Source: Heterotrichella gracilis
Taxonomy: Eukaryota > Sar > Xanthophyceae > Tribonematales > Xanthonemataceae
Assembly (NCBI GenBank): GCA_032358255.1
Contig: JAULBX010011545.1
Coordinates: 1 to 64,000, forward strand
DNA length: 64,000 nucleotides
Direction: 5' to 3'
This document shows positions 434-63,967 of this stretch, one piece after another. The notes beneath the pieces were generated by a model. The model ran no database searches. It was not told the origin of the DNA and saw nothing but the letters and a program-made list of their open reading frames with translations. Each line of letters starts with the position of its first letter. The stretch's first letter is position 1. Made by a program: the position numbers and the translations under genes.

Positions 434-2807
434 CCTCATGTGCAGGTCGGTGCGCCTCACATGCACGCCCACCCACTGGTAGGCATCCCAAGGCCCAGCG
501 CTGGCGTCAAACGCATCCAGCTTATCTTGAACACTGCATGCATTTTATTTCAACTACATCAAACCTATTAATTATCTGTTTGTAAAACATCACGTGGGGA
601 GGGCATGCACAGCAATGGCTCATTCCTGCATGAAACCAGGCCATGCAGTTTAAAGATTTATAAGTCACTTGTGATGTCGGCAGCACAGCATGGGTCGGTG
701 TGTGCAGGGCAGGTTCTGAAATTCACCATATAATAAACAAACCAAAAAATGACTACAGCTGAGGCCTGCATGTGCAGCAATGACAAGGAGCCACCCACCC
801 ATGTGCATGCCCATGTGCGCGGATGGGCCAATGCTGTGCATGCATTCAGAGTTCCTTTCGTGAGGATACCGACACAGGGAGACCTGGGATGGGCCATTGC
901 CCACACACACAGGCGCACAGGTGTCACCAGTCAAAACCCTACACCCTAAACCCTCACCCTTTTGAAGGCTGCAGCATGCTGTAGAACCACAGGGTTTCGT
1001 GGACGGGCGCCACTGGCTTGGAGGTCTGCAGGCACAGCGTGAGCTCCCCATCAAGGCTCCTGCAACCAGACGAGGTGCATGCAATGAGATGCCCTCATGC
1101 AATGGCCATGGTGTTAAATTACCAACATAAATGTTGAACTATATTTGATTACTGAAACATTTATTCTACATAAAACGTTCATGCCCAGATGTTGTATTCC
1201 ATTTAAAGCAAATCCATGTGCATTGATTAGATGGTACGAGACATTCTCGTTGGGAGCAGAGAATGATGACTGTACAAGCCAACACCTGTGCCAGCTTCGT
1301 ATCTTTTGTGTTTTTTGTTCACTAAGTGACATCTTGCATTTCCTTTCATCTACAACAACTGATTCATATGTAGTAGATTGGATCTTATGTCCTCAAGATG
1401 CACCTGTGCAACAAAGACTCCCGGTGGTACAGCTTGTCAAAATTAAAAATTAAAATTAAAAAGATTCAAATCAGTGCATTGGATATGTTTTCATCAAGCC
1501 GCACCTGTGCCACGCCGACTCCCCGCGGTACAGCTTTTCAAATTCGAACCTCCCCAGCCGCCACCCCCTCCATGGGAACTCACAGCCCTTGTTGGATTCA
1601 TTAAAACGGGGGAGATCAGTGACGTACGGCAGCGAGGGCGCCGAAAAGAGGTCAGAAAAGGTTGCGTTCATGAGCGATGTTGCCGTCTTGTGGCCCGTGC
1701 GCCACCACTCGTAGATCCTGAGGTTGAAGCCCAGCGTGCGGCTCCTTTCCAGGAAGGAGGCTGCGGCGGTAGGGGCCCAGGGGTGTCAGCCATGGGTGCG
1801 CACACAAGGTTTTGGGGAACAAGCAAACCTCTTGGAGTGCCGCACCATGCATGGAATGCCAGACATGCATGGAACCATGCATGCAATGCCAGACAAGATT
1901 GTCTTGCAGATGCAACGTACTCTCCACCGCAGCAGCATGCTGCATAATAATCTTGATAATTATGGATGATATTCATGATGATAATAATCATGGATAATGA
2001 TAGTGATCTTTGGTGCTGCAGGGCCCGCACCTATGACTCCCAGCTGGTTGGCCACTCCCTCGACCGGCATGAGCACCACAGTCCGGTTGTACTTTGTGTG
2101 CATCCACCACTCCCCTTGCTCCTCCGCAGCACTGCCATTGCCGCTCTCGGGTGCACTGCCACAGGAAAGGAGTGGGAATTATAAAGGGGCTACCCCGATG
2201 TTGTCCCCAGTGGCTCTCCTTCACAGGTGCAAAGCAAGATGCGTTGACATGGGGTAGCTTGCACGACCAACAACTGATATATATAATATATTGTGTAAGG
2301 AACGAAATGCCGGGCGCCGCTTGTGCGTAGCGGGCGGCTCACTCAAAACCCAGCACCTAAACCCTAAACCCAAAATCCAGTGGCACAGGCTTGTGCAAGG
2401 CTGCCTGCTCACCTTAAATCCTACAGCCATACCCTCCACCCTAAACCCAGTGGCGCAAGCTTGTGCAAGGCTGGCTGCCAACATGGCTGCATGCTGGAGT
2501 GCTTGCCACCACTCAAGGTAGTAAAAGCTCTTGGGGCATACCTTGCGTGCTGCAGCGTTGGTTCGTGGCCTGCTGGTTCAGCTCTGGAATCCTGTTGCTG
2601 GGTGCCTGTGCTATTGTGGGGCTTTGAAGCCAGTACTGCCCTGTCGTGTGCACTCCCGTGGTGGTGTTTGCTGTGGCTAGCGCTCTGGAGCCTTCTCAAG
2701 GGCCCAGGTCGAGAGCTGTGGTGCTGGTTCCCCGCTTGGCGTGGTGTCGCACCCACACAGCAGCTGCCCACCAGCAGTGCCACCAACTGGCACAGCCTCA
2801 GTGCCAT
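434..2807 (-). CDS. Fucosyltransferase-like secretory glycosyltransferase, 3' end missing
   Basis: Exons read on the minus strand: 2807-2542, 2155-2031, 1760-1505, 1059-958 and 533-434. Phases join cleanly and give 283 codons before the window ends. The start at 2807 gives a hydrophobic N-terminus (MALRLCQLVALLVGSCC), which fits a signal peptide or type II anchor, then a His/Ser-rich stem. The next two exons contain RTVVLMPVEGVANQLG and a later FSDLFSAP stretch. Exon 5 contains WVGVHVRRTDLHM. A G-x-x-N-x-L motif followed by HVRRTD is typical of the NodZ/FUT8/O-fucosyltransferase superfamily, which moves fucose from GDP-fucose in the ER/Golgi. The exact family (GT23, GT65 or GT68) and acceptor cannot be named. 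Exon 4 could instead run on to a TGA at 954-956, but the GTGAGG donor and the phase match to exon 5 favour splicing. Confidence 0.55.
1397..1444 (-). repeat. Echo of fucosyltransferase exon 3 end
   Basis: The sequence repeats the 3' end of the exon at 1505-1760: the exon encodes KLYRGESAWHR before its donor and this copy reads KLYHRESLLHR. It lies in the downstream intron, about 100 bp from the original. This is a decayed tandem copy that includes the donor site. Confidence 0.7.
2377..2478. repeat. Two-copy 32-bp repeat at 70-bp spacing, with CCCTAAA motifs
   Basis: Two near-identical copies (2377-2408 and 2447-2478) of a unit starting CCAGTGGC and containing GCTTGTGCAAGGCTG. They are separated by sequence with ACCCTAAACC motifs and lie in the first intron of the fucosyltransferase-like gene. 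Confidence 0.75.
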
Positions 2808-4205: not shown

Positions 4206-7200
4206 GCGCTTCTGTTCCTGGCTTGCTTGGGCCAAACCCTAGCCAAGGTAAACACAGCACCCCTACTCGTATGCAGCACTGGGTATTAGAACCCACCTCT
4301 CTGGAAGCTATATTCTTATCACAGGGGCACATGCATGTGATGCGGCTGCTGGTTGGGGTATGGCTTAGGGTAACCCCCCTGAATCAGTGCATGTAGGGGG
4401 CACGTGTCAGGTGGCACTGGCATCTGTTGAGGTTTGGCACGTTTGGGTATGGCTTAGGGTATGGGAGCAGCAAGCAAGGGCTGTGTCTCTGGCCCAGGGG
4501 ACCTTGCCGAATCGTGTGCACCTCGTCTAGTGTCTCCTGCCAATGCATTGTGCCAAACACTGCATGGTGTCCATGTGGACACCAGACCTTGTCCATTTCC
4601 ACCAAGGCATCATATTTTCCTCATAAACGCCTCCAGCTACTTGCATGCCCCTTGCCCCCAGTCATATGGCCAGTGTGGCCGCAGAAAGCCTTCTAACCAT
4701 TTGCTTTCCCCTTGTCCTCAGTCAAATGGCCAGTACGCCACCACGCACATCATGGTGCGGCGCCCGCCTGGCCCCAAGCGCTACTCAACCAAGGCGCTGG
4801 ATGCCATGGGGCTCCAGGAGGGCAAGGCGGTGGGCTCCAAGGGGTGGAAAAAGGCTGAGATCACTGACGGAGGGGACGTGGAGCAGAAGCTGCAGGAGCT
4901 CAGGGCAGAAGGCAAGTATATTGACCAAATTTCGTATATATTTGGTGATTAGTTAACCTAAGAATTTTTTTTATATACTTCTTTTTTGTTTGTCTACACT
5001 TATGTGGTATTGATAAACATCAGTTAAATTGCATACTTCAACTGAGTACACATGGTATACATGTGGGCAACACATCGTATAACAAATGGTGCAATTATGC
5101 TGTTTAGCTTCATCCCTCGTGGTCGTATCCTACCCAGATCCGACCCACACACGCACAATCGAAATAAATATGAAGAAGCATTTTTTTAAACTAAAATGCG
5201 ACGACAGCAATAAAAAAAGAACTGTTGCCGCTTTCCTGCAGGCTACGAGGTCAGTGTTGATGCCTTTGCCCGAGTGGCCACCGACTCTGTTCAGCCCAAT
5301 GACCAGTACATCGGCCTGCAGTGGGGCATGGGGGCCATCGGCGCACAGCAGGTGAGCTACCCTAAACCCTAAACCCTAAATCCTAAACCCTACACGACTG
5401 GTATACACAGCCCCCCCATGACCAGGAGATCGACCTGCAGTGGGGCATGGGGGTGACAGCTACATAGGGCTACATTTTAGGGTTACACAGTTGCAACTAC
5501 AATGACATGCCAGCATCCCTACATCTTCAACGGCAGTTGCAGTTCGCAAATTATCGTGGCCATGCCAGCAGCATGTACCCACTTTGAGTCACCATACTAT
5601 ACGTACACCCACCGCCACCACCACCACCCTAAACCCTTAACCCTTAACCCTAAACATTGACCTAATATGATCTTGACCATCATCTCCACCCCAGTCACCC
5701 ACCCACCACAGCCACTTACCCCTCACACCATCCCCACACACATAGGCCTGGGCAGTCAGCACCGGCAACGCCAGCGTGGTTGTGTGCGTGGTGGACACTG
5801 GCGTCAACTACAACCACCCAGACATCTCCGCCAACATGCACCCCGACAAGGGTGTGTCCATCATCAATGGGGTGACCTCTGCTGATCCGATGGATGTGGC
5901 GGGGCACGGCACGCATGTGGCAGGTGGTTGGGGTGAATTGGTGCTGTGACTGTGTTAGGGACTAGGGTTTAGGGTCACAGGGCATGGCATGCGTGTGGCA
6001 TATGGGTAGCGGGTGGGGTTGGCAGACATGCCCACACACACAATGACCAGGAGTAGTGAGCCGGGGCACCCCTACTGCCCCATCGGCAGCAGTTATTGAC
6101 CTATGCCCCACATGCGCATAAAGAAAAAACCCATAAAAAATGCTTTACCAGGAATCCTGCTCGTGCACTCTGTTCGACGCGCGCCACTGCACCCTCCACA
6201 CACAAGACCAAAACCCCCTTACATCAAGCTTGAAAACCGTAAATTCAAACCCTTGCTGCGCAGGTGGCATGGCCTCTGTGGGCATCAACCGGCATGTGCA
6301 GCCGCTGGCCAAAGATTTACAGTGCTACCTGACAATTACATGCACTATGAACTATATACTTGGATGTAATTGGGGGTGAAGTCTTAGTTTTCAAACGAAA
6401 GCAGTACTACATTGCTTAGTGGCATTTGGGATTTCACACAACCGTGTCTTTGCAGGCGTGATCGGCTCTGTGAGCAACAATAGAATTGGCTCTGCGGGCA
6501 TCAACTGGCAGGTGCAGATCCTGGCCTGCCGCTTCATGGCCTCGGATGGGTCGGGCCTCACCTCGGATGCAGTGCTGTGCCTCCAGTACTGCCGCAGCAA
6601 GGGGGCCTATCTGGTGAACAACTCGTGGAAATCGGACTCGGCGGTCCAGGCGCTGTATGACGAAATCCAGGCGGGGATCACGGGAGGGGGGGGGCTAGGT
6701 ACGCGCGCGACCCAAAACCCAAAACCCTAGACTCTGACCACCGGATGTGGGAAAGGTGGTGCAGCGCTGCTCACGCTGAAGTGGGGGTGGGGAATATTAC
6801 GGTGTGGGATTGTTCCCGCGCCAGGAAATTGGCTGGGGGAGAGGAAATGCTATGCCATACCCCCCCACCCATGACTGCTGTCACACATCCACCTTGCCTC
6901 ACCCCCACGTCACCCCTGCATGCCACCACCCACCCACCACCACCCCCTACACTCCACAGGCGACCTCTACGCGGCAGCCTCTGGCAAACCCTAGACCCTA
7001 CACTTAAATCCGGCTCTACATGGCAAACCCTAAACCCTAAACCCTGAATTCCCTACAGGCGAGCTCTACATGGCGGCCTCAGGCAACAACGGGGTGGACA
7101 TCGACCCCGCCACCGACTTCTTCCCAGCCGCCTACTCCCTCTCCAACATCATCTCGGTGTCAGCAACCTCCCGCCGGGGATCCAGCTGTGGGAACTACGT

Positions 7201-9600
7201 CCCGGAAAAATCGCTCAGCTACTCCAACTTTGGGCGCACGCGGGTCCACCTGGCGGCCCCTGGGGATTGCATCGTCAGCTGCACGGGGCTGTCTTCTCCC
7301 ACCGCCTTTGAGTATGGGTACCGCTCGGGGACGTCCATGGCGGCACCGCACGTCACTGGTACGGCTTGGGTGTAGGGTGGGGGTAGGGTTTTGGTCTCCA
7401 TAAGCGCCCTGCTTCTAGTCAGAAGTATGGGCGCCGTGCGTGTGCATTTTGTGGAGCCAGGAATTTGCATTTTGAGCTGCACAGGGCTGTCTTTGCCCAC
7501 CGCCTTTGAGTATGGGTACCGATTGGGGACGTCCATGGCAGCGACACACATCACAGGTCCGGCGTTGGTGTAGGGTTGGGGTAGGGTTTTGATCCCCATG
7601 AGCGCCCTGCTTAAAGCGAGATTTTGGGCGCGGTCCATGTGCACGTTGCGGCGCCTGGAGGTTCATTGCCAGCTGCAATTCTTCAATTACCGCCTTAAAG
7701 TACATACCCGATCCCTCTTGAAGGTATCCTTGGGCTCACACCTGCTGGGTTCCATTAGTTACGGATGGCGCTGAAAACAATCTAGCCCCTAAATCCTTAA
7801 CCCTAAACATGAGTGTGTGTTGCACCCGCAGGTGCTGCTGCGCTGCTCCGGGCGGTGCGGCCCGATTTGAGTGTGGCACAGCTCAAAGACATCATCTTAT
7901 CCACTGTGGATGTGGTGGACTCCCTGAGCGCTTACCCTACAGTGACGATGGGGAGGCTCAACCTAGGGGCGGCGATGGGGGTGGCGGTGGGTCGGGCGCC
8001 GCCCCCCACGCCCCCACTGCCACCACCGCTACCACCACCACTGCCACCACCTCCAAGGCCGCCACCACCACCGCCCCGCCCACCTCCGCAACCACCATCG
8101 CCACCGCCACCACCATTTCCACCACCTCCTGTTCCACCGCCACCACCACCGACGCCGCCACCACCATTTCCACCACCACCGACGCCGCCGCCGCCTTTGC
8201 CTCCACCAACGCCGCCACCACCGGCACCACCACCAATGCCGCCATCCCCGCCACCACCATTTCCACCACCACCCCAGCCACCTCCGCCGCCTCCTCCACT
8301 GCCCCCACCAACGCCGCCACCCCCACCACCACCGTCGCCACCACCGTCGCCGCCACCACCCCAGCCTCCCAAGCCACCTCTGTCACCTCCCCCTTTGCCC
8401 CCACCAACGCCACCACCACCGACGCCGCCACCCCCGGCACCACCGTTGCCACCACCACCCCAGCCACCTCCGCCACGTCCTCCTTTGCCCCCACCGGCGC
8501 CGCCACCACCGTTGCCACCACTACCACCACCACCATCTCCACCGCCACCATTTCCGCCACCACCGTCGCCGCCGCCACCTACACCACCATCGCCCCCACC
8601 GCCGTCGCCACCGCCACGGCCACTCCCATCACCACCTCCCTTGCCCCCACCGCCGTCCCCGTTCCCCCCACCTCCCACCCCATCCCCGCCACCGCCGCAA
8701 CCACCATCACCAAAGCCGCCATCACCGGGTCCACCACCAACACCACCACCACCACCACCATCGCCATCTCCGCCACAACTTCTGTCGCCATCACCACCAC
8801 CACCCCCATCCCCACTGCCGCCATCATCACCACCACCATCGCCTTCAGCATCGCCGTCACCACCTCCGTCGCCATCACCACCACCGCCTTCACCACCACC
8901 TCTGCCTCCCCCCTCCCCATCACCACCACCACCTAAGCCACTGAAGAGCCCACCGTCACCAAAACCACCACCAAGACCGCCACCAAAACCACCGCGCCCA
9001 CCCCCCTCACCAAGACCACCTCCACCCTCACCCAAGCCACCACCAAAACCAAACTCATCACCACCACCCAGCCCACAGCCTCCACCGCCACCCACGCCCC
9101 CATCACCCAGCCCCCAACCACCACCACCCAGCCCACCGCCACCGCCACCAACACCCCAGCCGCCACCCAAGCCGCCACCACGACCACCCAGACCCCCACC
9201 TCGCCCCCCACCCAAGCCGGCGTCCCCCAAACCACCCCCAAGACCACCACCTCAGCCCCCACCGCGCAAACCACCACCACCATCCCCTGCATTGACATCG
9301 CCCCTGAGCACAACGGGGATGATTCTCAAGAGCAGCAGCAACCCAAAACCGCCACCACCACAACCCCGCAAAAGACCCCCACCACCAGCAGCCCGCAGAA
9401 AACCGCCACCAGCGGCCGGCAAAAAGCCATCACCAGCTCGCAGAAAGCCACCACCACACACAGCCAAGGTGGTCTCCAAGCCGCCGCCGCATACTGTGGC
9501 AAACCGCCGCCCACCGCCGCGAACTTCAGGTTCAACACACCGTCGCCCACCGCCTCGCCGCCGCAGGCCACCACCGCCCCGCCCCCGCCGCACGCTGTAG
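4206..9600 (+). CDS. Subtilisin-like serine protease with a very long Pro-rich C-terminal domain
   Basis: Exons: 4206-4247 (tentative), 4722-4911, 5242-5351, 5746-5923, 6456-6698, 7059-7358 and 7832-9600. Together they make 943 codons plus stop in phase. The tentative first exon encodes ALLFLACLGQTLAK, a signal-peptide-like core; the ATG upstream of it was not located. Residues ~15-110 look like a propeptide. The catalytic triad of the S8 family is complete: VVDTGVNYNHPD (Asp), GHGTHVAG (His) and GTSMAAPHVTG (Ser); the oxyanion-hole Asn is in AASGNNG. From about residue 395 the chain is almost entirely Pro-rich PPPSPPPP-type repeats, ending in a basic Pro/Arg/Lys tail. Such domains are typical of hydroxyproline-rich extracellular-matrix proteins of volvocine-type algae, so a secreted or wall-anchored protease is likely. 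The intron after 4911 starts with GC. Decayed exon copies sit in several introns. Confidence 0.9.
4645..4681 (+). repeat. Echo of protease exon start (4722)
   Basis: A copy of the acceptor and first exon bases, CAG followed by TCATATGGCCAGTG, about 60 bp before the real CAG and TCAAATGGCCAGTA. It carries a usable-looking acceptor but diverges at once afterwards. Confidence 0.65.
5354..5391. repeat. CCCTAAA telomere-like tract after a splice donor
   Basis: Four successive CCCTAAA-type units, one of them TCCTAAA, begin seven bases after the donor of the exon ending at 5351. They separate that exon from its echo at 5413. Confidence 0.85.
5413..5453 (+). repeat. Echo of protease exon 5242-5351 end
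   Basis: Repeats CCATGACCAGGAGATCG and CTGCAGTGGGGCATGGGGG from the exon end (DQYIGLQWGMGA), about 90 bp downstream and beyond the CCCTAAA tract. It is a decayed partial duplicate. Confidence 0.75.
6261..6310 (+). repeat. Echo of protease exon 6456-6698
   Basis: GCGCAG followed by a stretch readable as GINRHVQPLA, resembling GINWQVQILA of the exon starting at 6456. It has its own acceptor-like AG and lies in the upstream intron. Confidence 0.6.
6950..7026 (+). repeat. Two echoes of protease exon start (7059) fused to CCCTAAA
   Basis: The exon start GCGAGCTCTACATGGCGGCC is imitated at 6960 (GCGACCTCTACGCGGCAGCC) and again at 7011 (GGCTCTACATGGC). Both copies break off at GGCAAACCCTA and pass into CCCTAAA-type repeats. 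This is one of the clearest cases of an exon copy ending in a telomere-like junction. Confidence 0.8.
7387..7562 (+). repeat. Second copy of the catalytic-Ser exon end
   Basis: Duplicates the last ~130 bp of the exon 7059-7358, including its donor region. It reads ILSCTGLSLPTAFEYGYR then GTSMAATHITG in one open frame and has a possible acceptor at CTAGTCAG. The residue two after the Ser-Met-Ala-Ala run is Thr where the functional exon has Pro (GTSMAAPH). It could be an alternative exon or a dead copy. Confidence 0.8.
7573..7700 (+). repeat. Third, decayed copy of the catalytic-Ser exon region
   Basis: Shares the leader ATGAGCGCCCTGCTT with the second copy (ATAAGCGCCCTGCTT) and traces of the exon beyond (GGGCGCGG, GCGCCTGG, CATTGCCAGCTGCA). 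The frame is broken. The unit repeats at about 190 bp. Confidence 0.6.
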
Positions 9601-10819
9601 CCAGGACGTGAGGGTGCTCAACAAACCGCTGCAGGGGTGGGCTTATAGACGTGGACCTCCTAAAAACCATGTTGAACTGTGGTTGGCGCATCTGGTGGGG
9701 TGCATTGGGGGTGGGTTATGGCCTTTTGGAGCATGTGATGGGGAGCAAGGAGCGTTGACCGGTGCAAACTAGTAGATTTTGTAGTTGATAGAGAGTTGCA
9801 ACTAGTTGCCAGGAATGATAGCGTTTTCACATCATGCAAAGACTGATTCTAGTTGGCATGCACATTTTTTCTTTGTGTTTTTTCCGTGAAGTTTGTGTAT
9901 ATCGTCATCGTTGATGAGCTTGAGGTTCCGAGCTTGACCAGGCAATGCCTGCCATGCTGAAATTGTAGTTACAGTAAAATTTCACGTTATTTTTTGTGTT
10001 ATGAATGCAATCCCTATCCATTGTGGCCAAAATCAGAGTCTTACAGCCGTTGAATTTCATGAATGCATCTTCTTTCAAATTTGTAGGGCCCTGAGGGTGA
10101 TCAACGATTTTGCGCCCGATGTTTTGCGCCTGACCCAAGTCTTGGAGGCTGTTTCTGCTCCACGTATCTTAGGTTACCCAGCTACTGTGGGCCAGCCTGG
10201 CTGCCACCAGGTCCTGACACCTGCAAGTACTGCTTTAGGTAGATTCCATGGTCGGACCAAGGACTCCTTGATCCTAGCTTGCTATGAAGAGCAGGCTTGT
10301 TCAGCCTCAGCACAGCCTCGAGGTCACCAGTGTAATAAATTATATGAGCTCAGCTGGCTGGTCACGATTCTCCAATGGCATTCAGTGTGTCTCAGTGAAG
10401 GGGGGAATAGCAGACACCAATATCAACGGGGATGGCACAGCCTGCAAGTGCACTCGCAGGCTGCACTTGCTAGAGTGGCTTCTATTTGTACTCCTTCCAG
10501 AAGTGATTGAGGTCCATGAGCTTAGATTCAGGTTGGGTAAACACAACACCGTGCCCAGTTATCTTTTGAAGGAGTCTACCAGGCAGGTCCTGCAATGAAG
10601 TCACTTCAGCTTGCCGCTTGAAGCCATACGGTATGACTCATCCTGTGACAGTTTCCATAGACTGCTAAGCAAGGCACTAGGACGTGCAGTGACCTGCCTT
10701 TTAAAACTTCACACACATCGTGATTGGAGTTTGGTAGTGGAGCTGCCGCTTGGGAGCCTCCAACAACTGAGTTTTCTAGGCTAAAATCGTTTGCCGGATA
10801 GGGGTTGGTTTGGATCACC
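9601..10819. other. Intergenic region, protease 3' side to SOUL gene 1
   Basis: No gene recogn­ised. An open frame at 10001-10510 on the plus strand has no recognisable motif and no splice-supported neighbours. The stretch before 10820 should hold the SOUL promoter and 5' UTR. Confidence 0.5.
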
Positions 10820-18109: not shown

Positions 18110-18170
18110 AATGGACAGGGCAGGTTTTGCAGCGGTTGTTTACACCGCAGTCTGCTGGGCCTGTGTAGCC

Positions 18171-18175
18171 TGTAA
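18171..18175 (+). terminator. Putative poly(A) signal TGTAA
   Basis: TGTAA lies 62 bases after the SOUL gene 2 stop codon, the common green-algal poly(A) element. The equivalent position of gene 1 also has one. Confidence 0.45.
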
Positions 18176-18699: not shown

Positions 18700-19062
18700 A
18701 ATGGGCACTCACATGGCATGTGAATGCCGCTTCGATGCCAGTGGCACTGGCATTATAATGCGAAGGCAGTGCCAACGGCGCCAGGGTTTGACACAAACCC
18801 TATACACAGGTTTTGGGCACAGGAACCGAAACATCATCAAGGCAATACAACAACCTTAGCTGCTTGTGAATTTCTAGTTGTCATTTTAAAGAAATACCAC
18901 TCCTTTTCCAATCGGGCCCCACAATGCATGCATACAGGCAAAACACCGAGACTTGAGTTGTTAGGAGTTGAGTTGACGCCTAAACGGTCTAACTTCGGCG
19001 CAACCGCCTCAACCCATTCCTACAACTACTGCACAACACACAAGTGCCCCAAACCCACCAAC
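18700..19062 (+). repeat. Duplicated upstream segment, copy A (before the plastid membrane protein gene)
   Basis: Shares ordered blocks with 22044-22468: an AACCTTATACACAG-like block, GGGCACAGGAACCGAAACAT, a CCTTTTCCA block, and near the end CACAAGTGCCCCAAACCCAC. Each copy lies directly upstream of a gene for an organelle membrane protein, so it may be a duplicated promoter or a mobile element that landed twice. Confidence 0.65.
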
Positions 19063-19251
19063 ACTGCGCACATGCGTGCATATGGTGGGATAGAGAAGGA
19101 AATCAAACCAGTAGCACTCAGCGCTACCAGATCCCAAATAAGTCTTCTCCTTCATTCCTGCTCCAACCTGTTCCCGTATCCAGTGTACTCTCGCTTCCGT
19201 GTGTCCACATCCAAGGTTTTGTGCTGTCCAATACCTATCTGCCTGTGAACC
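19063..19251. other. Probable 5' leader of the plastid membrane protein gene
   Basis: Unique sequence between the duplicated upstream block and the start codon. No exon was recognised. Confidence 0.3.
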
Positions 19252-22468: not shown

Positions 22469-22486
22469 TGGCAGCAGTGGCACACG

Positions 22487-52323: not shown

Positions 52324-54474
52324 CTAGAACCAGCTGCTCTCGGGGCATCCGGTGTCCGAAATGAGACCGCGCTTCTCGGCCGCCTGCTTCAGGTCCTTGG
52401 TGTATGCGCTTGGGAAGGCTTTGCCCAGCCCGTTGTGGAACTGGTGGTAGCGCTCCGCTGGGTAGAAGGGGAGGGCGGTGGAGTCCACCACGTACACGGT
52501 GTTGATGCGGTCGTTCTCGGTGGGCTTGCCGCCTGTGAACGTGTTGCCGCTGCCGGGGACCAGCTTCATGCCGTTGACGTTGCTGGCCTGCGCGGTGGGG
52601 TGCGAGGGGTCAGAGGATGGAGCCTTGCATGGGTTGCATGTGGCTGTACTGCTGGGACGCATGTAGCTAACTAAGGGTTAATCAAACGACAAGGGGAGAT
52701 AGGATAGGCATGATGAGGCGGTAATTGTCGGCGTTTGCCGCATGAACAGGTGTTGCAGCAGCCGAGAACCAGCTTCATGCCATTGACGTTGCTGGCCTGC
52801 ACAGCAGGGTGCATGTGGTGAATGAGGGATAGCGCATTGTGGATAGATAAATAGACATTAAAAAGCGCATTGTGGATATTAAAGCACTCAATAGACGCAA
52901 CACGATACAACACATTTCTGCCACCTTCAATCTTGCTCTACTCCACAACAATTGTTTTTAGACCCGCGCATTTTTCCATGCTTGCGATTGTCATTTGTGT
53001 TTGTAATTGTAACAAACCTTGATAATGTCCATCATGGGAGAGTCCACGCCACCCGGGATGCCAATCACATTGCGGTATCCCGGCCCCGCATCCTGGGGAT
53101 CCTGGCGCAGCATCCCGAAGGGCGTCTTGCGGAACTGGCTGAAGTACACGTCTGCAAACGCCTTCATCTGGCGCTTTGCCTCCGCCATGTCAGCAGCCTT
53201 GACATTCAGCTGGACCACCTCTGCGTGGCCTAGCTTCTCATAGAGGGTGCCCTCAGGGCCGTAGTAGTAGCACACCTTGCCACCAGGACCTGCAAAAATG
53301 AAACCATGAATATTTGAATGATTGGAGTCATAAGGAAGTGAGCCAGGCTCCCTGAATATGAATGTCCATTACGTTCTTGTAAACCTGGTAAATTGATTGT
53401 GGGCCAATTCGAGGTCCTAACGCCAGGAGATCTTTATTATATGTAATATACATTGAAGTCGTCCTGCTGGCGCTGCAAGTATAGGGTCGACTGCTGACCT
53501 TGCTAGCGAGAATAAAGAAGTACACATACCGTATATGAGCTGTTAATGAGCAGGCGTGGTGGACACTGAAGAGGGAGCACGACAAGGAAAGAGCATTGCC
53601 CTGCTGTCAGTGCCACTAGGCCTCACACCAGGCCTTCAAAGTAGGCTCCGCACAAGGATTAAATGTCTAATGTCCGGTATCCAGGTGTGTTTTGAAATTG
53701 CGTACTACCATATTAAAAATGCATATTCATGCATGGCAACGAGCACTGAAGCCTGGCACCCACCTGCTCCATAGCCACCCCCCGCATACCCCACAATCGC
53801 AGAAAAGTCCTCTGGAAGCCTGCCCATGGCAAACTCGGCATCCACGAAGTCCTTCTGCCGCCCCCAGAAGCAGCCGTTGCCAAAGTAGATGGGCATGGCC
53901 ACCTCCTCAGCACTGGTAGAAGCTGCTGATGCAGCCGCCTCGGTACTGGCTGGTTCCGCCTCTGCGGATGCGCTCTGGGGCTTGAGGGTGACTGCGGTAA
54001 TGGTCCATAGGGCTGCAGCCAGGGCGGCTCGTCGGGAGATGGACTGCCTGCGGGGGCGGTGTGGGACTGGTCAGGGCAAGGGCGTGGGATGGCGCGGTTG
54101 CCATCGGGGTTGGCAGGGTGAGGGACAGGTGAGGCCATGGGTATGCGCCACTGAAGTAGATGTGGGTTATGCCCCACAGTGGGGTAGCAAGGGAACTGTG
54201 TGGTGCCACAAGTGCAAGTGTGCAGACGACCCCTGCTTGCTCCATCTAGCTGTCAGCACCGTACAGGAGCGGTGTGAACCACATGGCTGCAAATACAAGA
54301 GCTCAAAATGAAACCGAAGCAAGGTAGGTTGGGCTACTGTATGTGCTGGCCTTACTTGTGGTTGGCAGGGGCTTGTGGTGGGGAGGGGCTGTGGCCCTGC
54401 TGCTGTTTCTTGTGCTTGCTCAGCCCGCCAGCGCTGCAGCACAGGACCGGCTGGGAGGTGACGGCTGACAACAT
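52324..54474 (-). CDS. MSRA: Peptide methionine sulfoxide reductase A, plastid/thylakoid-targeted form
   Basis: Exons 54474-54356, 54047-53764, 53289-53018 and 52587-52324 give 312 residues. MsrA signatures: IYFGNGCFWGRQKDFVD (catalytic Cys near 99), SAIVGYAGGGYG, YGPEGTLYEKLGHAEVVQL and FYPAERYHQFHNGLG. MsrA reduces methionine-S-sulfoxide and repairs oxidised proteins. The leader is bipartite: a transit-peptide-like start (MLSAVTSQPVLCCSAGGLSK), then SISRRAALAAALWTITAVTL and a cleavage-like SASA before EAEP. A twin Arg before a hydrophobic stretch suggests Tat import to the thylakoid lumen, an unusual place for MsrA (inference). The insert around 180-240 (PFGMLRQDPQDAGPGYRNV) is longer than in bacterial MsrA. 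C-terminal Cys in GCPESSWF may act in resolution. Echoes of the last exon lie on both of its sides. Confidence 0.9.
52727..52815 (-). repeat. Echo of MsrA last exon start
   Basis: Minus strand reads ASNVNGMKLVLGCCNTC after a CAG, against ASNVNGMKLVPGSGNTF at the real exon start (52587). It is nearly identical for the first 30 bases, then decays. It lies about 215 bp upstream, in the intron. Confidence 0.88.
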
Positions 54475-55859: not shown

Positions 55860-56275
55860 CTGCAAAAGCCACACCCTTCCCAGCCCCCCCCCCACATGGA
55901 GTGGCGCATGATGCCATGCTTCTCCACTACCTCCTGGTCCTCAGGCCCTGGACATCGGATGTACGCCCCAGGGCGCAGCGAGGCTAGGCAGCAATCCCGA
56001 GCAAGCATCCCAGGGAGGTGGGCCATCGACAACCAACTCCACACGGACCTCACTCGCTGCTCGCCTGCCCAGACCCTTTACAGGGTGTAGCGCGTGAGGC
56101 CATACTTCTCCCCACACCTTCTGCTGCCCAGGATGCTGTTCCCAGGGCGGAAAGAGGCGGGCAGAAAGGGGCGAGGCCCAGCCAGTAGGCCTGCGCGGCC
56201 ACCCCAGGCTGGGGGCACCCACAAGCAACCCCGCAAGGACCTCACTCCCTGCTCGCCTGCACAGGGCCAGACCCT
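55860..56275 (-). repeat. Two echoes of the OSCA last exon beyond the stop codon
   Basis: The terminal exon and stop region (plus strand ACCCTTTACAGGGTGTAGCG with CCATACTTCTCCCACACCTT) recurs at about 56074-56260 and, more decayed, at 55860-56070 (CCATGCTTCTCCACTACCTC). The step is about 200 bp. Both keep GGGCGCAGCGAGGC or GGGCGGAAAGAGGC and the ACAAGCAACC/ACAACCAACT blocks. Confidence 0.85.
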
Positions 56276-59200
56276 TTACAGGGTGTAGCGCGTAATGCCA
56301 TACTTCTCCCACACCTTCTGCTGCTCGGGGTACCAGCCCACAGCTCCGGGGCGCAGCGAGGCGGGCCAGTATGCCTGGGCGGGTACCTCGGCAGGGGGGG
56401 CATCCACAAGCAGCTCAAGGGGAAGTTCCTTGTCCTGCCTGAAATGGTACGCCGCCCACCTGCACAGAGGGTTTAGGTGTAAGGTTTTAGGGTTGTATTA
56501 CTCACTGAGAGACACACTCACTCCTACACACTCCAGGCTGGGAGTAGAAGGTTAGGGTTTGGGGTTTAGGGTTTGTAATACAATTTAGGGTTGTGTGCAT
56601 CATTAGGGGCAGAGCGTGATCATGGGCAGGGGTCAGGGGTTTGGGATGCTCATTCAACATTTGGCGTAGCCAGTGAAATAGGTAGGGCGTTATCAATGGC
56701 AGGGTTTAGGGTACTCACTGGGGGAAAGAGCGGTATCATTGCGCAGGGTATAGGGTTTAAGGTACTCACTGTGAGTAGAGCGGGATCATCGGCAGCGCAG
56801 ATGAGCAGCATGATTGCCTGCCAGTGGCAGTTTAGGGTTGATGCTTCAAGGTGTAGGATTCAAGGCTTAGGGTCTAGGGTACTCACTGTGCGTACAGCGG
56901 TATCATCGGCAGCGCAGTGAGGAGCAGAATGAGCGCCTGCCAGTAGCCTTGCATGGAGGTGAGCACGCAGGCCGTGAACACCACAAACAGGATCATGCAT
57001 GACACCACCGCCTCGAAAGTGATCTGGAACAGCGCACCACCGGACTCGTAGCTGCGCTCGTAAAAGTACCTGCAGCGCCCAAAAAGGAAAGCGTTATTGC
57101 CGCTTTTTCAATTTTTGTTTTCGTGGCCGGACTCGTAGCTGCTCGTAAAAGTACCCGCGGCATCAAAACGTTAAAACATCATTGGCTTTCTTTTCTACCG
57201 TATGTGTCCTTTTCGCGTCATCTGGAACAGCATGCCGCCGAACATGTACGGTACGCCGATTATGTACAAGTGCATGCGAGTAGAGGGCACAGCATCCACA
57301 CTGACTTCATGCTGCCAGCCCCAGGGGCAACAATATGCGGTAGTGGAGCAAGCACGCTGGCACACGTTCTGCCATCGCCATAACCCTCGTGGCACAAAGG
57401 GCAGGCGGTAGCTAGGGTTGTTAGGGTTTCCACAGGGCGTACAGCTGATGGTGGCTAGGGTTGTTAGGGTTTCTATTAGGACCTTCAGCTGATGGGAGCG
57501 ATGTTAGGGTTTCATTGGGGCTAAGCCTTACAGCTGGTGGTAGCGCCACGTGATCCAGGAGGTCATGAAGTAGAATAGGGTGACGGGGAGGATGATGGGC
57601 GCAATCACTGCATACGAAAGCGCAAATATGAAGCCCTGGTATGCCGCGCCGTAGTGGCGGCCGTAGCGGTAGGAGGGCGTGGTGCGGATCATGGCGCGGT
57701 CCTTGGCGCTCTTGGGCCCTGTGGGATTGGGGTTTCGGGTTCAACTCCTTGTGCAGGAAGCAAGCAGAACATCTCTCATACAATAGAAAGCTGTGTAGGT
57801 CAACACGAACACATTAACTGCTTTGTGTGCCCTTCAAAGAGACACATTTGTCCTTTGAATGTGCCCATCAATATGACAAATGTTTCTTCTCAAGGAGACA
57901 CATTTGCAATGGCATGGCCTTAGCTTTACCAACATCAGTGCCGAACTTGCAGCAAGCAGAAAGGCATTCGCAGCCATACTTACTGTGTAGGCCAATGGCT
58001 CTGAACCCCACAAACAGCACAGTTCCATCGTGTGGCCACACAAATCTGAACACATTTGTGAACAGGCCGCGCACCACCAGGGTGTTGATGAAGAAGTTGG
58101 ATGAGGTGGGGAGAGCGGTGCCGACCAGCTCAAAGATTTGGCCTGCAGGTTGCAAATGATGTACTTTTAGTCCTTTATAACATGATTACTATGGCAAGGC
58201 TTTGATCTAGCAAAGTATTACCAACTCCCAGGGACTGGCTGTCAGGGGATGTTTAGGGTTCGAGGTTTAGGGTGTGAAGAAGAAGTTGGCTGAAGTGGGA
58301 AGGGCGGTGCCCACCAGCTTGAGAATTTGGCTGTCAGAGACTGTCTAGGGTGTGCACACCTGGGGATGCGATCGCCGATCCCAGCTGCCATGAGGGAACG
58401 AGTTTAGGGTTTAGGGTTTTTGGTCTAAGGTGTAGGTGCACACCTGGGGATGCGATTGCCGATCCCAGCTGCTGGAAAATGGCCCCGCCCACTGCTGCCA
58501 AGATGAATGAGTTGAACACATCGTATACGAAGAACCAGTAGGACACGCGCTGGTCGATCTTGCTCAGGGAGAAGCACCTGCGTGCAAACTGCAGCACACG
58601 CACGTGTCGGTATGTCATACATATACTTTGAATATTCATACTGAGGGTTGCCGAATTGCCATTGTATGAGTAAGGTGTAAACTACCAATATACTTTATAT
58701 AATTCATACCGAGGGCTGCAAAACTGCCATTGTATGGGTTGAAGCTGGTACATGCTTTTTGTAACTGTACTCGTTCCCGCACCTGGACCAGGGAGTACAG
58801 CACCATGGGTATGCCACAGGTCTTATAGTCATGTTTGTAATTGCTCCCTATGTGTTACCTATCATTGTCATCCTGCATGATTGTACATTGCACTTGTTGT
58901 GCACCTGAACCATGCAGTAGACTGGCAGTAGAGCGGCACCTTCCAAGGTGTCATACCCAGGTTTTGAAATTTGCCATTGTGTGCGTAGGCTGTAATTTCC
59001 GCACCTGGACCAGGCAGTACAGCACCATGGGTATGACACAGGTGCCGAAGCTATGTTCAAAATGCTCTTTATTTTATTTGTTATATATCACTGCAGAAAT
59101 GCATTTTCCAAATTGTTGATTTGCCCCGCACCTGTACCAGGCAGTAGAGCACCATGGGCATCACAAAGGTGTCGTAGAAGGTGCCGATGATCCCCGGGAG

Positions 59201-62200
59201 GACACCTGTCAGCAGGTCCTTGACAAGCTCCTGCCAGGGGCTGTTGGACTCGCAGAACCAGGGCCAGTACAGCGAGTTGGTCTCAGGGGTCCCGCCACAG
59301 ACCGACACCTGGAGGTTGGTCAGTGCGCCTGCATAAGGGAGAAAAAAATGAACAAGGTACAGTTACAGTTGGGCTACATTATCATTCAGGCAACAAGAGC
59401 GTTTTGTTTCTTGAGATCCCGGGCGATTTGATGTGCAATTGCTGTTACCCCATGACCCAGCCTCAGCATTACATTTACAATTACGATGACAGGTACATTT
59501 TACGGTGATGGCAACGGCATGCACTGGCCCCACCTGTGAAGCTGTACAGGGGGAAGATCATGACTTGAAATACAATGACAATTACAGAGAATACAATAAC
59601 ATTTACAGTTACATCTACGATAATGGCAGTGGCATGCACTTGCCAACCTGTGAAGGCGTACAGGGGGGAGATCATTACGAGGAACATGCAGAGGACCACA
59701 CAGGCAAATTTACAATTACAATGACGACAATGACAATGGCATGCACTGGCCCACCAGTGACGGCGTACAATGACAATTACAATCACATTTATAAAAATCA
59801 CAATTACGATGACATACACGATATTGGCAGAGCCATGCATTGGCCTCACCTGTGAAGGCGTACAGGGGGAATATCATGATGAGGAACATGCAGGGGACCA
59901 CAAAGGCGGTGCGCATGGGCCGCTCCCTGGCCCTGGCCCAGAGCCCCCACCAGTTGATGTCCTCCGGTGATGGCGCCATCTCGATTGAGTACTCGCGCTC
60001 AGAGTCAAGGAGGGCTTGCAGGTGGCTGGCCACATGGGCATCCTTCTGGGAGCTGCAGCAAGTGAAGTACAAATGATGGGAATCGTTCTTGTTCAATGCA
60101 TCTTATTTTTTCGTAAAGGCAAGCTTTATCCATGTTTTGAAACGAATGACAGAGTTTTAGAATAGCACTCGCGCTCGGAGTCGCTCAGAGTGCTTGCAGG
60201 TGGCTGGTCACAGGGGCGTCCTTTTGGGAGCTGCAGCAAATGAAATGTAGATGATGGGAGGCCATTATAGCTACCTAGGGTTTAGGTACCAGGATGAGCG
60301 CAAACAAAACATCGATGTTTGGGGTTTAGGGAACCTGAAAAGAGCAACGAAAGCATTGGGTTTTGGGTTTAGGGTTAGAGTTTAGGATACCTGAACAACG
60401 CAAATAAAGCACCAGGTTGTAGGGTTTAGGCTTTATGGGTTTAGGGTATAGGGTTTAGGGTACCTGAACAGCGCAAAGAAGGCATCGGGCACGGGGTTGT
60501 CCATGGCCTGCTTGCGTGCATCCCTGATCTGACCCTCGATCTTGGAAACCTCCTCCTGCAGCTTGGACAGGCGCTCATCCGCCTCGCTGGGTGCCTTGGC
60601 ACTTGCATCTTGGTCTGTGGTGGCAGGCAGCGTGGCTTTGGCTGCCTCCAGCTTGCCCATGGCATCATCCCACTTGTACATCAGCACATCCACTTCCTGC
60701 AATCGAAGGGATGTTCAAGCTTTGAGGTTTCCATAGCAAAGCCTACCAATTTATTCATCACATGCGGTAAACCTCGACACTACAGCTTCCCTATGGCGTC
60801 GTCCCACTTGTACATCAGCACGTCCACCGCCTGCGATCCCAGGGATGTTGAAAGGAGTGGCCAAATTCTGACAGCAAAGGCTGGCCATGGCTAATTGATA
60901 CACCGAAATACAGCACAACACTTGCAGCCCATCAATGCATGAATGTCGCCTGGTCATAGGCACCACATGTCCACCACTGAGGCACCACCAGCACACGATG
61001 CCGCCGAAAACAAACAAGGCCGACCATTGGCAAACAAAAAAGGCACATTCTCTAGCACAACAAGCGTGCAGCCCTCGACCCAAAGCCCTTCGGGTAACGA
61101 CCCCAACCCTGTAGCCTCACCAGGTGGTTGTACACAGGGACCAGCTGGTCGTAGCCATCCCTTGTCCAAGTGAGGCACCACCAACAAACCCTAACCCTTA
61201 ACCCTGAAACAAAAATGCTGACCAAAGGCACATTCTTTTGCAACCCTCAGCCCAAGCCCCCCAAGCAATGCCGCAACCCCGTTGATCAAATGCAATAGAA
61301 CCCAATCCTGTAAGCTCACCAGGTGGTTGTACACTGGCACCAGCTGGTCGTAGCCATCCGCAAACATGCAGCGCAGCGCGTGGTCGACGTACAGGTGGCG
61401 CCCATCAAACAGCTTCCGGTACTTCTCTATTTTCTCCTGATGCTTATCCCCCTTGTGGCCCTTCTTCCTGGCTGCGTCTGGAATGGCAGCAACAGGGTTT
61501 AGGGTTTAGGGTTTGAGCAGGACTCTATTTACAGTTGAGCAGGTCATTAGGATATGAGCAGTCGCCTTACCAGTGACGGCACCAATAGGGTTTCAGGTTT
61601 AGAAGTTGAGCAGGTCATTTGAGTTTAGGGTTTGAGCAGGTCGTCATACCTGTGACAGCACCATTAGGGTTCATGGGTTAGGGTTTAGGGTTTCAGCATG
61701 TTGCCGTACCTGGTTCAGCAGGGTCCAGCAGCTTGATGGATGTGGCTGCCTCCACGTCTTCAAAGTCCCATGCCCCTGCCTTGATCCTCCTGCTCAGTGG
61801 GTGCTGGAGCCTGCGGAATTCGCCCTTCACCACTTTTTTCCCATCCGCCTCACCCGACTCTTCACCAAACCTTGCAAACAGGGAGCGGGGTTTGTCAGTC
61901 ATTTTGCAGTCGATTGCTGCACTAGATTGCAGTACAGCAGGGGTATTTGATTGTGCGCTACAAAGCATAATTGGTCCCTGCACCCAGCCACTTATGCTGG
62001 CGCCATTTCTGCAAGGGGCTAGATGCAGGAAGAAGCTTGACACAGAGAAACCGTGAATTCACACACAAACCATGGTTGTTACTCACATGACCTCCATCCC
62101 CCGGCTCCTGTCCGGTATGACAGTGGCGTAGTGCTATGCATGCAGCTTCACAGGGGTTGAACCACCAACTTACACTACATAGCACGCTGCACTTGTAAGG

Positions 62201-63967
62201 CAAGTGATCGCAACTGATCACAACTGATCGCACATGCCTTACAAGCGCAGCATGCTGGCCCAGCCAATGAAATGCAAACCCTATACATGATTACTCACAT
62301 GACCTTCATCCCCGGGCCTCTGTCCACGATGAGTGTGGCGTACTGCCTGGCATGCAGCAGCGCAGGGGTTGTGCAAGCAATTTGCAAGCACCAGTATGGT
62401 GCAGAGGCGTATCTTGCAGGCAATGACATGCCTTACAAATGCAGCGTGCCGAGCATTGAAGGCCCCCGCCTGCCGTGGTGCGCATTCACAGCAATATCTA
62501 GTGCACAAAACCTATGAATAGTTATAGTTACTCACATGACCTTCATCCCCGGGCCTCTGTCCACGATGAGGATGGCGTACTGCCTGGCATGCAGCAGCGC
62601 GGGGTGCTGGGTGCCCTTGGCGGGGACCAGCTGGCGCAGCTGAACGTTGCTCTTCCCTGGGAGCAGGGGGCCTCGGTGGAGCAGGTACTCCGGGATCTCC
62701 TCAGGCAGCAGCCACCAGGGCACAACTGTGGGGAAACCTGCAGGTGGCAGATAGGTACTGCTTTTATTGTGTGTTTATTTGTTATTAGCTTATGTAATCA
62801 TGTAATTGTTAGTATTACTTTATTGCACCTGATTACACACATGGGTTTTTTGGGTGCGTATGAAAAGGGCCAGGTGGCAGTAGCTAATCATGCCACAATG
62901 GCCCCGCAAATATTCAGGCTCTTGACATCCCCTGGTCGTTGCCTTTCATGCAATCGTCACACATCCTGCAAACACCCCTTACCGTCAGCTTTCCCATGTC
63001 CCCCTTGCTTGTCAGCATGAGACCCGTCGAAATCGTAGGTGGTTGAGAGGATGTCGTAATCGTAATCGTAGATTTCGTCCACCTGTTCCTGCTCCGATCT
63101 GGGCCGCTGCCCCAGGAGGCCCTTCTGCCTGGCCTTCAGGTTGAGATCAGCCACATGCGCCAGGTCAGCATTCACCATCTGCAGTAAAAAGGGAATGTGT
63201 TTATTTTTTTGTTATTTTATTGTTCATTTCTGCCTGGCCTTCAGGTTGAGGTCAGCCACATGTGCCAGGTCAGCATTCACCATCTGCAACAAGACGCCAC
63301 ACGTTCAGATCTCCATTTCATACCCCTTATAAATATACATGCAGGTTACTGTGCACCCATCAGAGGAAATTTTACTGTGCAGTAGTTAGACTGCATTAGC
63401 AGCTGGATGGATGTGTCCAATATTGTAAGCCTTGTGGAATCCAAAGGGTCAGTGTGCACTCCAATTTTGAATACGATGAACAGCTGGGCCATGATTTCCA
63501 CAAGTCCTAACCCCAAACCCTAAAATCTACCTTGTACGGGACGAACAGCTGGCCCATGATGTCCACAAAGCGCTGCCCCTTGCGCTTGCTCTCAGGTCCC
63601 ACAGCCCCCACCACCTTGACGGCTCCTTGCTGGTGAATGGTTGGGTGGGCGTGGAGCAGGTAGTGGAGGCGCAGCGCGCAGTAGCTCTGAAACCCCACAA
63701 CGTGCTTTAGGGTTTAAGGTTTGGGATCTTGGCATGCGTGGAGAGGAGAGCGAAGTCACAAATTGCCGTCAACCAAGGTCTACAAATCATCACAAGAAAT
63801 AGTACAATAAACTAGGTTGAAGAGAGAGGTTCACAAAGCAACACATGGAAGAAAATGGGGCCTTGCATGACTTGAACAACCTCGATTCCACATGCCTCAC
63901 CTTGTAGTGCCTTGTGAGCACCCATGTGACCCACGCAATGATCACATACACCTCCACGAATGGCAGC
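56276..63967 (-). CDS. OSCA: OSCA/CSC1 (TMEM63, DUF221) osmosensitive cation channel, 5' end missing
   Basis: Fourteen exons are visible: 63967-63901, 63686-63531, 63178-62983, 62737-62536, 61870-61710, 61477-61320, 60696-60464, 60052-59850, 59328-59132, 58588-58444, 58142-57984, 57718-57532, 57069-56887 and 56459-56276, about 810 residues. Diagnostic segments: ARQYAILIVDRGPG, VPDAFFALF, MAPSPEDINWWGLW, MFLIMIFPLYAFTG, YWFFVYDVFNSFILAAVGG, LPTSSNFFINTLVVRGLF, FALSYAVIAPIILPVTLFY and FYERSYESGG. This is the 7TM calcium-permeable channel region of OSCA/CSC1 proteins, which open on membrane tension or osmotic shock. A long charged coiled-coil-like cytosolic loop (EADERLSKLQEEVSKIEGQI) is present. 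Exon 5 may instead start at 61921, which keeps phase. The minus-strand TGTAA overlapping the stop codon could serve as a poly(A) signal. The N-terminal exons lie past 64000. Confidence 0.93.
56700..56835 (-). repeat. Two echoes of OSCA exon 13 end joined by TTTAGGG
   Basis: The donor end (plus strand GGTACTCACTGTGCGTACAG and CGGTATCATCGGCAGCGCAG) is copied near 56708 and 56760; the second copy extends to CATGATTGCCTGCCAGTGG. Each is preceded by a GGGTTTAGGGTA or GGGTTTAAGGTA link. Confidence 0.88.
57115..57240 (-). repeat. Echo of OSCA exon 13 start
   Basis: GGCCGGACTCGTAGCTGCTC and GTAAAAGTACCCGCGGC copy the real ACCGGACTCGTAGCTGCGCT and GTAAAAGTACCTGCAGC; further on TCATCTGGAACAGCATGCCG matches the exon interior. 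Confidence 0.85.
57425..57505 (-). repeat. Echoes of OSCA exon 12 end
   Basis: TACAGCTGATGGTGGC and TTCAGCTGATGGGAGCG copy the exon end TACAGCTGGTGGTAGCG at 57528. Units are joined by GGTTGTTAGGGTTTC links. Confidence 0.7.
58255..58395 (-). repeat. Echoes of OSCA exon 11 start and exon 10 end
   Basis: 58272-58335 copies the exon 11 acceptor side (GAAGAAGTTGGCTGAAGTGG, CGGTGCCCACCAGCTTG). 58353-58392 copies the exon 10 donor side (TGCACACCTGGGGATGCGAT, GATCCCAGCTGCCATG), almost unchanged. The intron thus carries echoes of both flanking exons. Confidence 0.9.
58760..59045 (-). repeat. Echoes of OSCA exon 9 end
   Basis: CCGCACCTGGACCAGGGAGT with ACAGCACCATGGGTATGCC (58779) and CCGCACCTGGACCAGGCAGT with ACAGCACCATGGGTATGAC (59000) copy the real CCGCACCTGTACCAGGCAGT with AGAGCACCATGGGCATCAC. 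A weaker one lies at 58902. Confidence 0.9.
59500..59770 (-). repeat. Tandem echoes of OSCA exon 8 end (~120-bp steps)
   Basis: CACCTGTGAAGCTGTACAGG (59531), AACCTGTGAAGGCGTACAGG (59646) and CACCAGTGACGGCGTACAAT (59751) copy CACCTGTGAAGGCGTACAGG at the exon end (59848). All are linked by ACAATTACA-rich spacer. The 59646 copy runs furthest into the exon (GAGGAACATGCAGAGGACCA). Confidence 0.9.
60155..60250 (-). repeat. Echo of OSCA exon 8 start
   Basis: ACTCGCGCTCGGAGTCGCTC and GCTTGCAGGTGGCTGGTCAC, through GGGAGCTGCAGCAAATGAAA, copy the exon start and its acceptor. It lies about 180 bp upstream. Confidence 0.9.
60285..60420 (-). repeat. Three echoes of OSCA exon 7 end with TTTAGGG links
   Basis: GGAACCTGAAAAGAGCAACG, GATACCTGAACAACGCAAAT and an older ACCAGGATGAGCGCAAACAA copy GGTACCTGAACAGCGCAAAG at the donor of exon 7. 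Each unit of about 55 bp carries its own GGGTTTAGGG. Confidence 0.88.
60780..60850 (-). repeat. Echo of OSCA exon 7 start
   Basis: TCGTCCCACTTGTACATCAG and CACGTCCACCGCCTGCGATC copy TCATCCCACTTGTACATCAG and CACATCCACTTCCTGCAATC across the acceptor. It is very well preserved. Confidence 0.92.
61105..61165 (-). repeat. Echo of OSCA exon 6 end
   Basis: GCCTCACCAGGTGGTTGTAC and CCAGCTGGTCGTAGCCATCC copy the donor end of exon 6 almost exactly. It lies about 200 bp downstream in the intron. Confidence 0.92.
62070..62365 (-). repeat. Two echoes of OSCA exon 4 end (~230-bp steps)
   Basis: ACTCACATGACCTTCATCCC at 62294 and ACTCACATGACCTCCATCCC at 62083 copy the same 20 bases at the real donor (62530), each followed by exon-like CTCTGTCCACGATGA or decayed CTCCTGTCCGGTATGA and the GCATGCAGC block. 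The repeat unit also contains the intron block CATGCCTTACAA. Confidence 0.92.
63222..63290 (-). repeat. Near-identical echo of OSCA exon 3 start
   Basis: CTGCCTGGCCTTCAGGTTGA and GGTCAGCATTCACCATCTGC copy the exon 3 start and acceptor with about three differences in 60 bases. On the minus strand it still encodes MVNADLAHVADLNLKARQ. It is the youngest-looking echo in the window. Confidence 0.95.
63455..63510 (-). repeat. Echo of OSCA exon 2 end
   Basis: GATGAACAGCTGGGCCATGA and TTTCCACAAG copy GACGAACAGCTGGCCCATGA and TGTCCACAAA of exon 2, followed by CCTAACCCCAAACCCTAAAA before the real donor. Confidence 0.85.

Follow-up and report, generated by a model that had tools for sequence, protein, structure and literature searches.

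The introns of the 64 kb stretch of Heterotrichella gracilis DNA analysed here (the window, contig C117 of an assembly totalling 68.5 Mb in 903 contigs) hold sequences that resemble the edges of nearby exons, which raises the question of how such copies arise. The initial annotation had described more than 30 partial copies of exon edges in this window. Self-comparison of the window confirmed that these exon echoes are real: ungapped local repeat pairs with a score of at least 15 numbered 98 at 581 offsets of 20-600 bp versus 2 at 581 distant offsets. Counts were extended to 11 further nuclear loci of 3-10 kb (the 12-locus sample, ∼134 kb with the window), where a looser score returned 279 local direct repeats versus 15 in a distant-offset control restricted to loci of at least 10 kb. 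On gene models from a self-trained HMM, 28 of the window's 130 exon edges have a copy in non-exon sequence, as do 48 of 290 over the 12 nuclear loci (29 distinct exon 3' edges and 19 exon 5' edges), counts that include the first and last edges of gene models. The fucosyltransferase region, which has no HMM model, and echoes scored as coding by the HMM (63228-63288, for example) are not in these counts, and the figure of more than 30 is about right. The young pair cited near 63222-63290 was likewise recovered, as 61 bp copies at 63123-63183 and 63228-63288. That most genes carry echoes was too strong a statement: they are concentrated in the protease, TBC, MsrA and OSCA region and sparse at 8-40 kb. 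Density is uneven elsewhere too, loci L003 and L005 being dense and L029 and L035 almost empty.

Of the 13 HMM proteins of the window, nine were searched against Pfam (two in shortened form), and each matched a family above the cut-off. The models have a GC3 of 0.78, splice sites CAG/GTRAG and TGCAG/G, and a median intron of 308 bp. The window contains no tRNA and no Rfam match at the gathering threshold. A whole SOUL heme-binding protein gene is tandemly duplicated (10808-13522 and 15095-17368, matched stretches 73-92% identical), a two-copy repeat to which no kind was assigned lies at 18972-19065 and 22369-22468 (77% identical over 100 bp), and the end of the subtilase gene (7980-9600) is a very long proline-rich CCA/CCG low-complexity stretch with more than one open frame.

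An assembly artefact was ruled out by the 25% difference at synonymous sites in 56 exon-echo pairs and by a bacterial-looking contig of the same assembly, which gave 4 pairs in 60 kb versus 91 in the 64 kb window. Contigs C1 (894 kb, 35% GC) and C100 (L034) look bacterial, with dense long ORFs that appear to encode TonB-dependent receptors and secreted repeat proteins; the 68.5 Mb are therefore not all algal.

The echoes are direct tandem copies of one local unit, as in fill-in duplication. The earlier reading, short tandem duplication centred on splice junctions and ongoing, holds as to the process, which lengthens introns and copies splice sites along, and in part as to its centring. Gapped alignments of 75 exon-overlapping pairs pass the exon edge into noncoding sequence by a median of 29 bp (quartiles 6.5 and 53.5), so the idea that copies end at splice sites was dropped; by eye, similarity extends further into the intron in several displayed cases. 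The 110 genic pairs spaced 60-260 bp apart, some of which are not independent, comprise 68 that extend to an exon edge, 28 wholly noncoding ones, 7 inside an exon and 7 coding in both copies (15 more pairs lie outside genic sequence). This gives 2.4 edge pairs per noncoding pair versus 0.76 by random placement of the observed spacings on the same gene map. Circular shifting of the exon maps points the same way, with 76 of 173 pairs exon-noncoding versus 47.5 ± 9.1, the maximum of 300 shifts also being 76. Exon 3' edges outnumber 5' edges by 50 to 25 as pairs, but by 29 to 19 as distinct edges.

The edge excess is partly a matter of geometry, selection and easier detection, and these are the elements of an alternative explanation: ordinary random short tandem duplication, purifying selection and detection bias, with telomeric sequence (see below) as incidental intron filler. 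A median intron is short relative to units of 100-200 bp, so that edges would be hit often, as the 0.76 per noncoding pair reflects. Exon copies should also decay more slowly; part of the threefold excess is then expected, since the conserved exon copy keeps a pair visible longer, and by our estimate, which is not a computed value, a factor of up to about two should be due to the slower decay of one of the copies.

Intron parts of echo pairs are more diverged than exon parts, which is to be expected if an intron part decays in both copies and an exon part in one. For 62291-62604 and 63123-63288, this contrast appears to exceed twofold, more than such decay would account for; the latter is the youngest acceptor-side pair by identity of the exon part, and its intron part shows no visible repeat. 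In the 56 exon-echo pairs, pS is 0.246 and pN 0.084, and dN/dS is 0.30 (bootstrap 0.23-0.40; 0.27 without L033). The mean synonymous divergence of ∼0.3 gives little support to the view that duplication is ongoing. For a neutral echo of an exon under constraint, a dN/dS of about 0.5 would be expected, or less if synonymous sites mutate faster; the lower value makes mild past constraint or conversion possible, and a ratio of 0.27-0.30 also fits random duplication of constrained exons followed by decay of the copies, given a somewhat higher mutation rate at synonymous sites. A function of the echoed exon parts as alternative splice sites or exons, maintained by selection or gene conversion, is very improbable. 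A dN/dS below 0.5 and the far better conservation of the exon part in 62291/62528 and 63123/63228 would suit such a role, but the aligned echo codons of the 56 pairs contain five stop codons and most echoes cover part of an exon only.

The initial annotation missed two features. The first is that spacings fall into two modes, near 100 bp (class A) and at 175-210 bp (class B), with a trough between. Of 119 non-overlapping events of all spacings, 5 lie at 140-175 bp, 26 at 175-210 bp and 5 at 210-245 bp (middle bin P=2 × 10−6, with bins picked after the histogram had been seen). The lower mode spans ∼70-120 bp in the 12-locus sample. Genome-wide, in a tally covering spacings of 71-131 bp, duplicated donors gave 287 matches versus 8 for a reversed-motif control, with spacings peaking at 85-110 bp among the 100 matches listed. 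Here and below, genome-wide pattern counts are counts of matches, in which arrays and long tracts are scored more than once.

The second feature is telomeric sequence, which ties one of the two classes to splice donors. Eleven contigs contain arrays of seven TTTAGGG; in 6 the array lies in left-end orientation no more than 200 bases from the contig start, and in the other 5 it is taken as a right end from its orientation alone. TTTAGGG is the organism's own telomere repeat, and its internal copies are interstitial telomeric sequences (ITSs) in that sense. Defining a tract as 12 of 14 matches to TTTAGGG/CCCTAAA unless stated otherwise, we found one in 25 of 48 pairs spaced 60-130 bp, 2 of 6 at 130-170 bp, 2 of 27 at 170-210 bp and none of 8 at 210-260 bp (60-130 versus 170-210 bp, Fisher P=1 × 10−4); random, mostly noncoding windows of 110-240 bp hold a tract in 8-13% of cases. 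Within 60-130 bp pairs, the spacer itself bears a tract in 15 of 44, versus a mean of 4.3 in local permutations, none of 300 reaching 15; flanks of the same 44 pairs have tracts in 9 (left) and 4 (right). Spacers of 130-260 bp pairs show no significant excess (9 of 45 versus 6.1). By source, tracts occur at 60-130 bp in 10 of 14 exon 3' edge pairs, 3 of 7 at 5' edges, 9 of 21 noncoding and 3 of 6 coding in both copies. A telomeric heptamer is present in 46 of 60 genome-wide donor pairs among the matches listed, the corresponding figures being 4 of 21 for such donors in the 12-locus sample and 12% for random noncoding 80-mers (n=3346). When heptamers occurring at least 20 times in the noncoding DNA of the sample are ranked by over-representation, the first four are all telomeric, and all 14 telomere rotations fall in the top 17.

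These associations vary with spacing class and exceed local permutations, and together with the two spacing modes and the edge ratio of 2.4 versus 0.76 they strain purely random duplication where class A is concerned. As an account of all the echoes it is improbable; for class B it may be correct. Individual cases are listed below, with u for the source copy.

Table 1. Positions of individual echoes, their fillers and dispersed repeats; coordinates refer to the window unless a locus is given.
Feature	Position	Strand	Spacing (bp)	Remarks
TBC gene, source copy u (exon 3' end and donor)	46514-46553	+	75	
TBC gene, filler between copies	46554-46588	+		donor gtaag in register into TTTAGGG-type sequence; junction type, no telomeric tract at +/-75
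TBC gene, in-register donor/telomere match	C117:46551-46566			
TBC gene, echo of exon end	46589-46619	+		
OSCA region, whole	63475-63568	-	65	junction type
OSCA region, parts	63540-63568; 63504-63539; 63475-63503	-		exon end; donor and telomere-type filler; echo
Pair 58352-58388 / 58436-58472	58352-58472	-	84	97% identical
Filler of the preceding pair	within 58389-58435			CCCTAAACCCTAAA (sense); loose tract at -84 too
Protease gene, exon end (to 5923) and donor, echo 5980-6005	5902-6005	+	78	junction type
Protease gene, spacer of the preceding pair	5928-5979	+		telomeric tract
Protease gene, exon part 5295-5334, echo 5414-5453	5295-5453	+	119	donor after 5351
Protease gene, donor/telomere match; tract between the preceding copies	C117:5349-5369			(CCCTAAA)3 type; loose tract at +119 too
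Acceptor-side echo 6956-6987 of exon start in 7055-7086	6956-7086	+		telomeric C-rich sequence between copies, reaching the downstream acceptor
Donor-side pair 56744-56800 / 56861-56917	56744-56917	-	117	telomere-like sequence after both donors
Acceptor-side pair, exon start 63123-63183, echo 63228-63288	63123-63288	-	105	97% identical
Echo 61099-61160 of exon end 61298-61359	61099-61359	-	199	∼195 class; similarity extends into intron
Exon end and donor 47867-47938, echo 48065-48136	47867-48136	+	198	∼195 class
Echo 59646-59705 of exon end 59848-59907	59646-59907	-	202	∼195 class
Duplication 7240-7423 / 7438-7621	7240-7621	+	198	∼195 class; across donor at 7358
Acceptor-side pair 60010-60081 / 60188-60259	60010-60259	-	178	
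MsrA gene, acceptor-side pair 52526-52610 / 52735-52819	52526-52819	-	209	
OSCA part, last exon end, pair 56069-56112 / 56267-56310	56069-56310	-	198	echo beyond exon end
Pair 62291-62367 / 62528-62604	62291-62604	-	237	96% identical; exon part much better kept than intron part
SINE-like repeat copies	207-273; 26188-26236; 32077-32161; L030 4438-4515; L032 6944-7018			blastn

Since both donors and telomeric repeats lie in introns, a bare count of their proximity was dropped as evidence on donors and near and far positions were compared. In 97 well-supported introns, 15 of 43 tracts (13 of 14 matches) lie within 30 nt of the donor versus 3.7 expected; at 11 of 14 matches, the excess near donors is significant for G-rich tracts (11 versus 2.5) but not for C-rich ones (9 versus 5.5). 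The HMM may favour donors beside clearly noncoding tracts, and the test was therefore repeated genome-wide without gene models. CAGGTRAG followed by GGGTTTAGGG (G-rich) gave 120 matches at a gap of 0-15 nt versus 40 at 100-115 nt, and CAGGTRAG followed by CCCTAAACCC (C-rich) gave 104 at 1-16 nt versus 31 at 100-115 nt. Telomere motifs are thus about 3 times commoner beside donors than 100 bp away, a contrast possibly understated because some far matches are themselves donor pairs of the ∼100 bp class. Direct, in-register fusion of CAGGTRAG to GGTTTAGG makes up 40 of 195 matches, versus 155 spread over the 15 other offsets (10.3 each); this agreement of bases at the insertion point appears at donors only, and as an excess rather than locus by locus. 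Arrays of at least two successive donor-plus-telomere units are present at C75:85533-85827, C48:49916-50069 and C487:111517-111722.

Of the 60 listed donor pairs, 31 contain the G-rich motif and 20 the C-rich one, compared with 22 G-rich and 45 C-rich tracts in introns overall (Fisher P=0.003, the two sets being scored by slightly different rules). In the last 170 nt before acceptors of the sampled loci, a cut chosen post hoc, there are none of 22 sense-TTTAGGG tracts versus 22 of 45 CCCTAAA tracts, a pattern that selection against TTTAG as a spurious acceptor would produce. Upstream of TGCAGG, a motif not confined to acceptors, the genome-wide difference is modest (1090 CCCTAAACCC versus 799 GGGTTTAGGG).

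How tracts and duplications are ordered in time bears directly on the cause. In the clean cases 46514, 63475 and 5902, an exon end is followed by its donor, a telomeric repeat, a copy of the exon end and then unrelated intron; these three and L005 14-52 have the form u-tract-u' with no second tract. Including 49089, whose spacer is a few bases, 5 of the 15 spacer tracts are of this junction type. The other 10 have a loose second tract one spacing away, at +d or -d (random 50-mers, 19%), and in many cases the tract may therefore belong to the duplicated unit. The tracts could thus predate the duplications: they would lie near donors or at other places in introns and, being fragile or prone to slippage, would later have given rise to ∼100 bp duplications that took the tract along. 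Telomere-like sequence in successive units of the arrays 56744, 60276, 61561, L005 1387, L033 1372, C75 and C48 agrees with such an order, while the five junction-type cases oppose it, and by itself it leaves unexplained both the in-register excess at donors and the mostly tract-free class B. Either order would fit 10 of the 15 tract-bearing pairs, which keeps this alternative in play, although we consider it rather unlikely.

The layout of u, filler and u' also resembles insertion of an element with target duplication. Introners and other intron-generating transposons are a known cause of genome-wide intron change in algae, and an introner-like mobile element inserting at splice sites and leaving long target duplications would produce similar structures. 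Unlike introners, the echo loci show no dispersed family beyond telomeric repeats in the 12-locus sample (all-against-all blastn, E 1e-6, matches within 1.5 kb ignored), and class B similarity continues into the intron in several cases. With no such family found in ∼134 kb of the 68.5 Mb, a mobile element was rejected as hardly credible. All that the same search returned was the SOUL duplication, the match 18972-19065 / 22369-22468, low-complexity or telomeric matches and a SINE-like short dispersed repeat (TTAGTTAGTTACATGCATTCCAGCAA...), which occurs in both orientations with matches of ∼45-78 bp, 82-96% identical.

We propose, at roughly an even chance of being right, that the echoes arise when DNA breaks are repaired: telomerase-type addition would extend G-rich donor ends, overhangs would be filled in, and the extra copy would be kept where it is spliced out. 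The simplest account joins two processes already described, in-register telomeric addition at break ends and fill-in of 3' overhangs. In class A (∼100 bp), a staggered break would leave a 3' overhang, u; a G-rich 3' end, often a splice donor (CAG/GTRAGG), would be extended by telomeric repeats, and filling in of the overhangs, for which CST-Pol alpha is a candidate, followed by joining of the ends would yield u-(TTTAGGG)n-u'. The G-rich terminal bases of a donor such as CAGGTGAGG would fit the telomerase template. A G-rich filler after u would then mean that the upstream end was extended, and a C-rich filler the downstream end. Class B (∼175-210 bp) would arise by tandem duplication of the same sort, with no telomeric addition. 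Its unit is near the size of a nucleosome repeat, and paired nicks one such repeat apart may be its source, the unit size being the one observation that points to this. Duplications within exons would be lost and an extra copy in an intron would survive, so that a conserved edge comes to face a decaying copy. More broadly, we tentatively suggest, at less than an even chance, that telomere-type addition at ordinary breaks is a main force on gene structure here: G-rich donors would be its preferred sites, exon-donor edges would be repeatedly duplicated ∼100 bp apart, introns would be filled with telomeric repeats (branch-point-like CCCTAAAC, G-triplets) and spare splice sites would be supplied.

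If true, two mutation processes that are usually treated apart, short tandem duplication and the insertion of telomeric repeats at breaks, would both be tied to intron growth, in a genome with many repair scars that could be dated against constrained exons. In mammals, short ITSs are inserted during double-strand break repair (PMC2246262, PMC7215372), the 3' bases at the break being in register and the target duplicated in some cases (PMC7215372). Direct duplications occur at a minority of these loci (3 of 66 in horse and, among tabulated loci, 6 of 130 in rodents and 4 of 25 in primates), and about 80 to 250 ITS loci are reported per genome (PMC2246262, PMC7215372). In contrast, under a looser criterion (12 of 14 matches), 35 of the 97 introns sampled here contain a tract, and tracts are linked to ∼100 bp donor duplications. 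CST-Pol alpha fill-in of 3' overhangs produces small tandem duplications which, like the echoes, are short local direct copies with no need for dispersed homology; unlike them, they have no telomeric filler in the portion of the report consulted (PMC8355091), whereas the echoes have such filler, often longer units and two spacings. Intron gain by tandem genomic duplication of AGGT (PMC3443670) is similar in that the tandem copy carries splice-site sequence and is spliced out, but the effect here is to enlarge introns that already exist. Intron sequence follows the echo in all four cases examined (5295, 5902, 46514 and 63475), so that the copy is not immediately adjacent to the acceptor and a new intron need not be assumed.

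Among titles and the beginnings of abstracts in the open-access literature, a body that leaves most subscription journals outside, we recognised no description of telomeric tracts joined with exon-edge duplications; nor did we find there the density seen here, the tie between tract and spacing class or the in-register adjacency to donors. Whether intronic telomeric repeats affect splicing is a question raised in PMC7215372, and one that becomes testable in this alga, given the absence of sense TTTAGGG near acceptors in our sample (0 of 22). Judged by these four reports (PMC7215372, PMC2246262, PMC8355091 and PMC3443670), the parts of the process are known, and it is their scale and combination that are unusual here.
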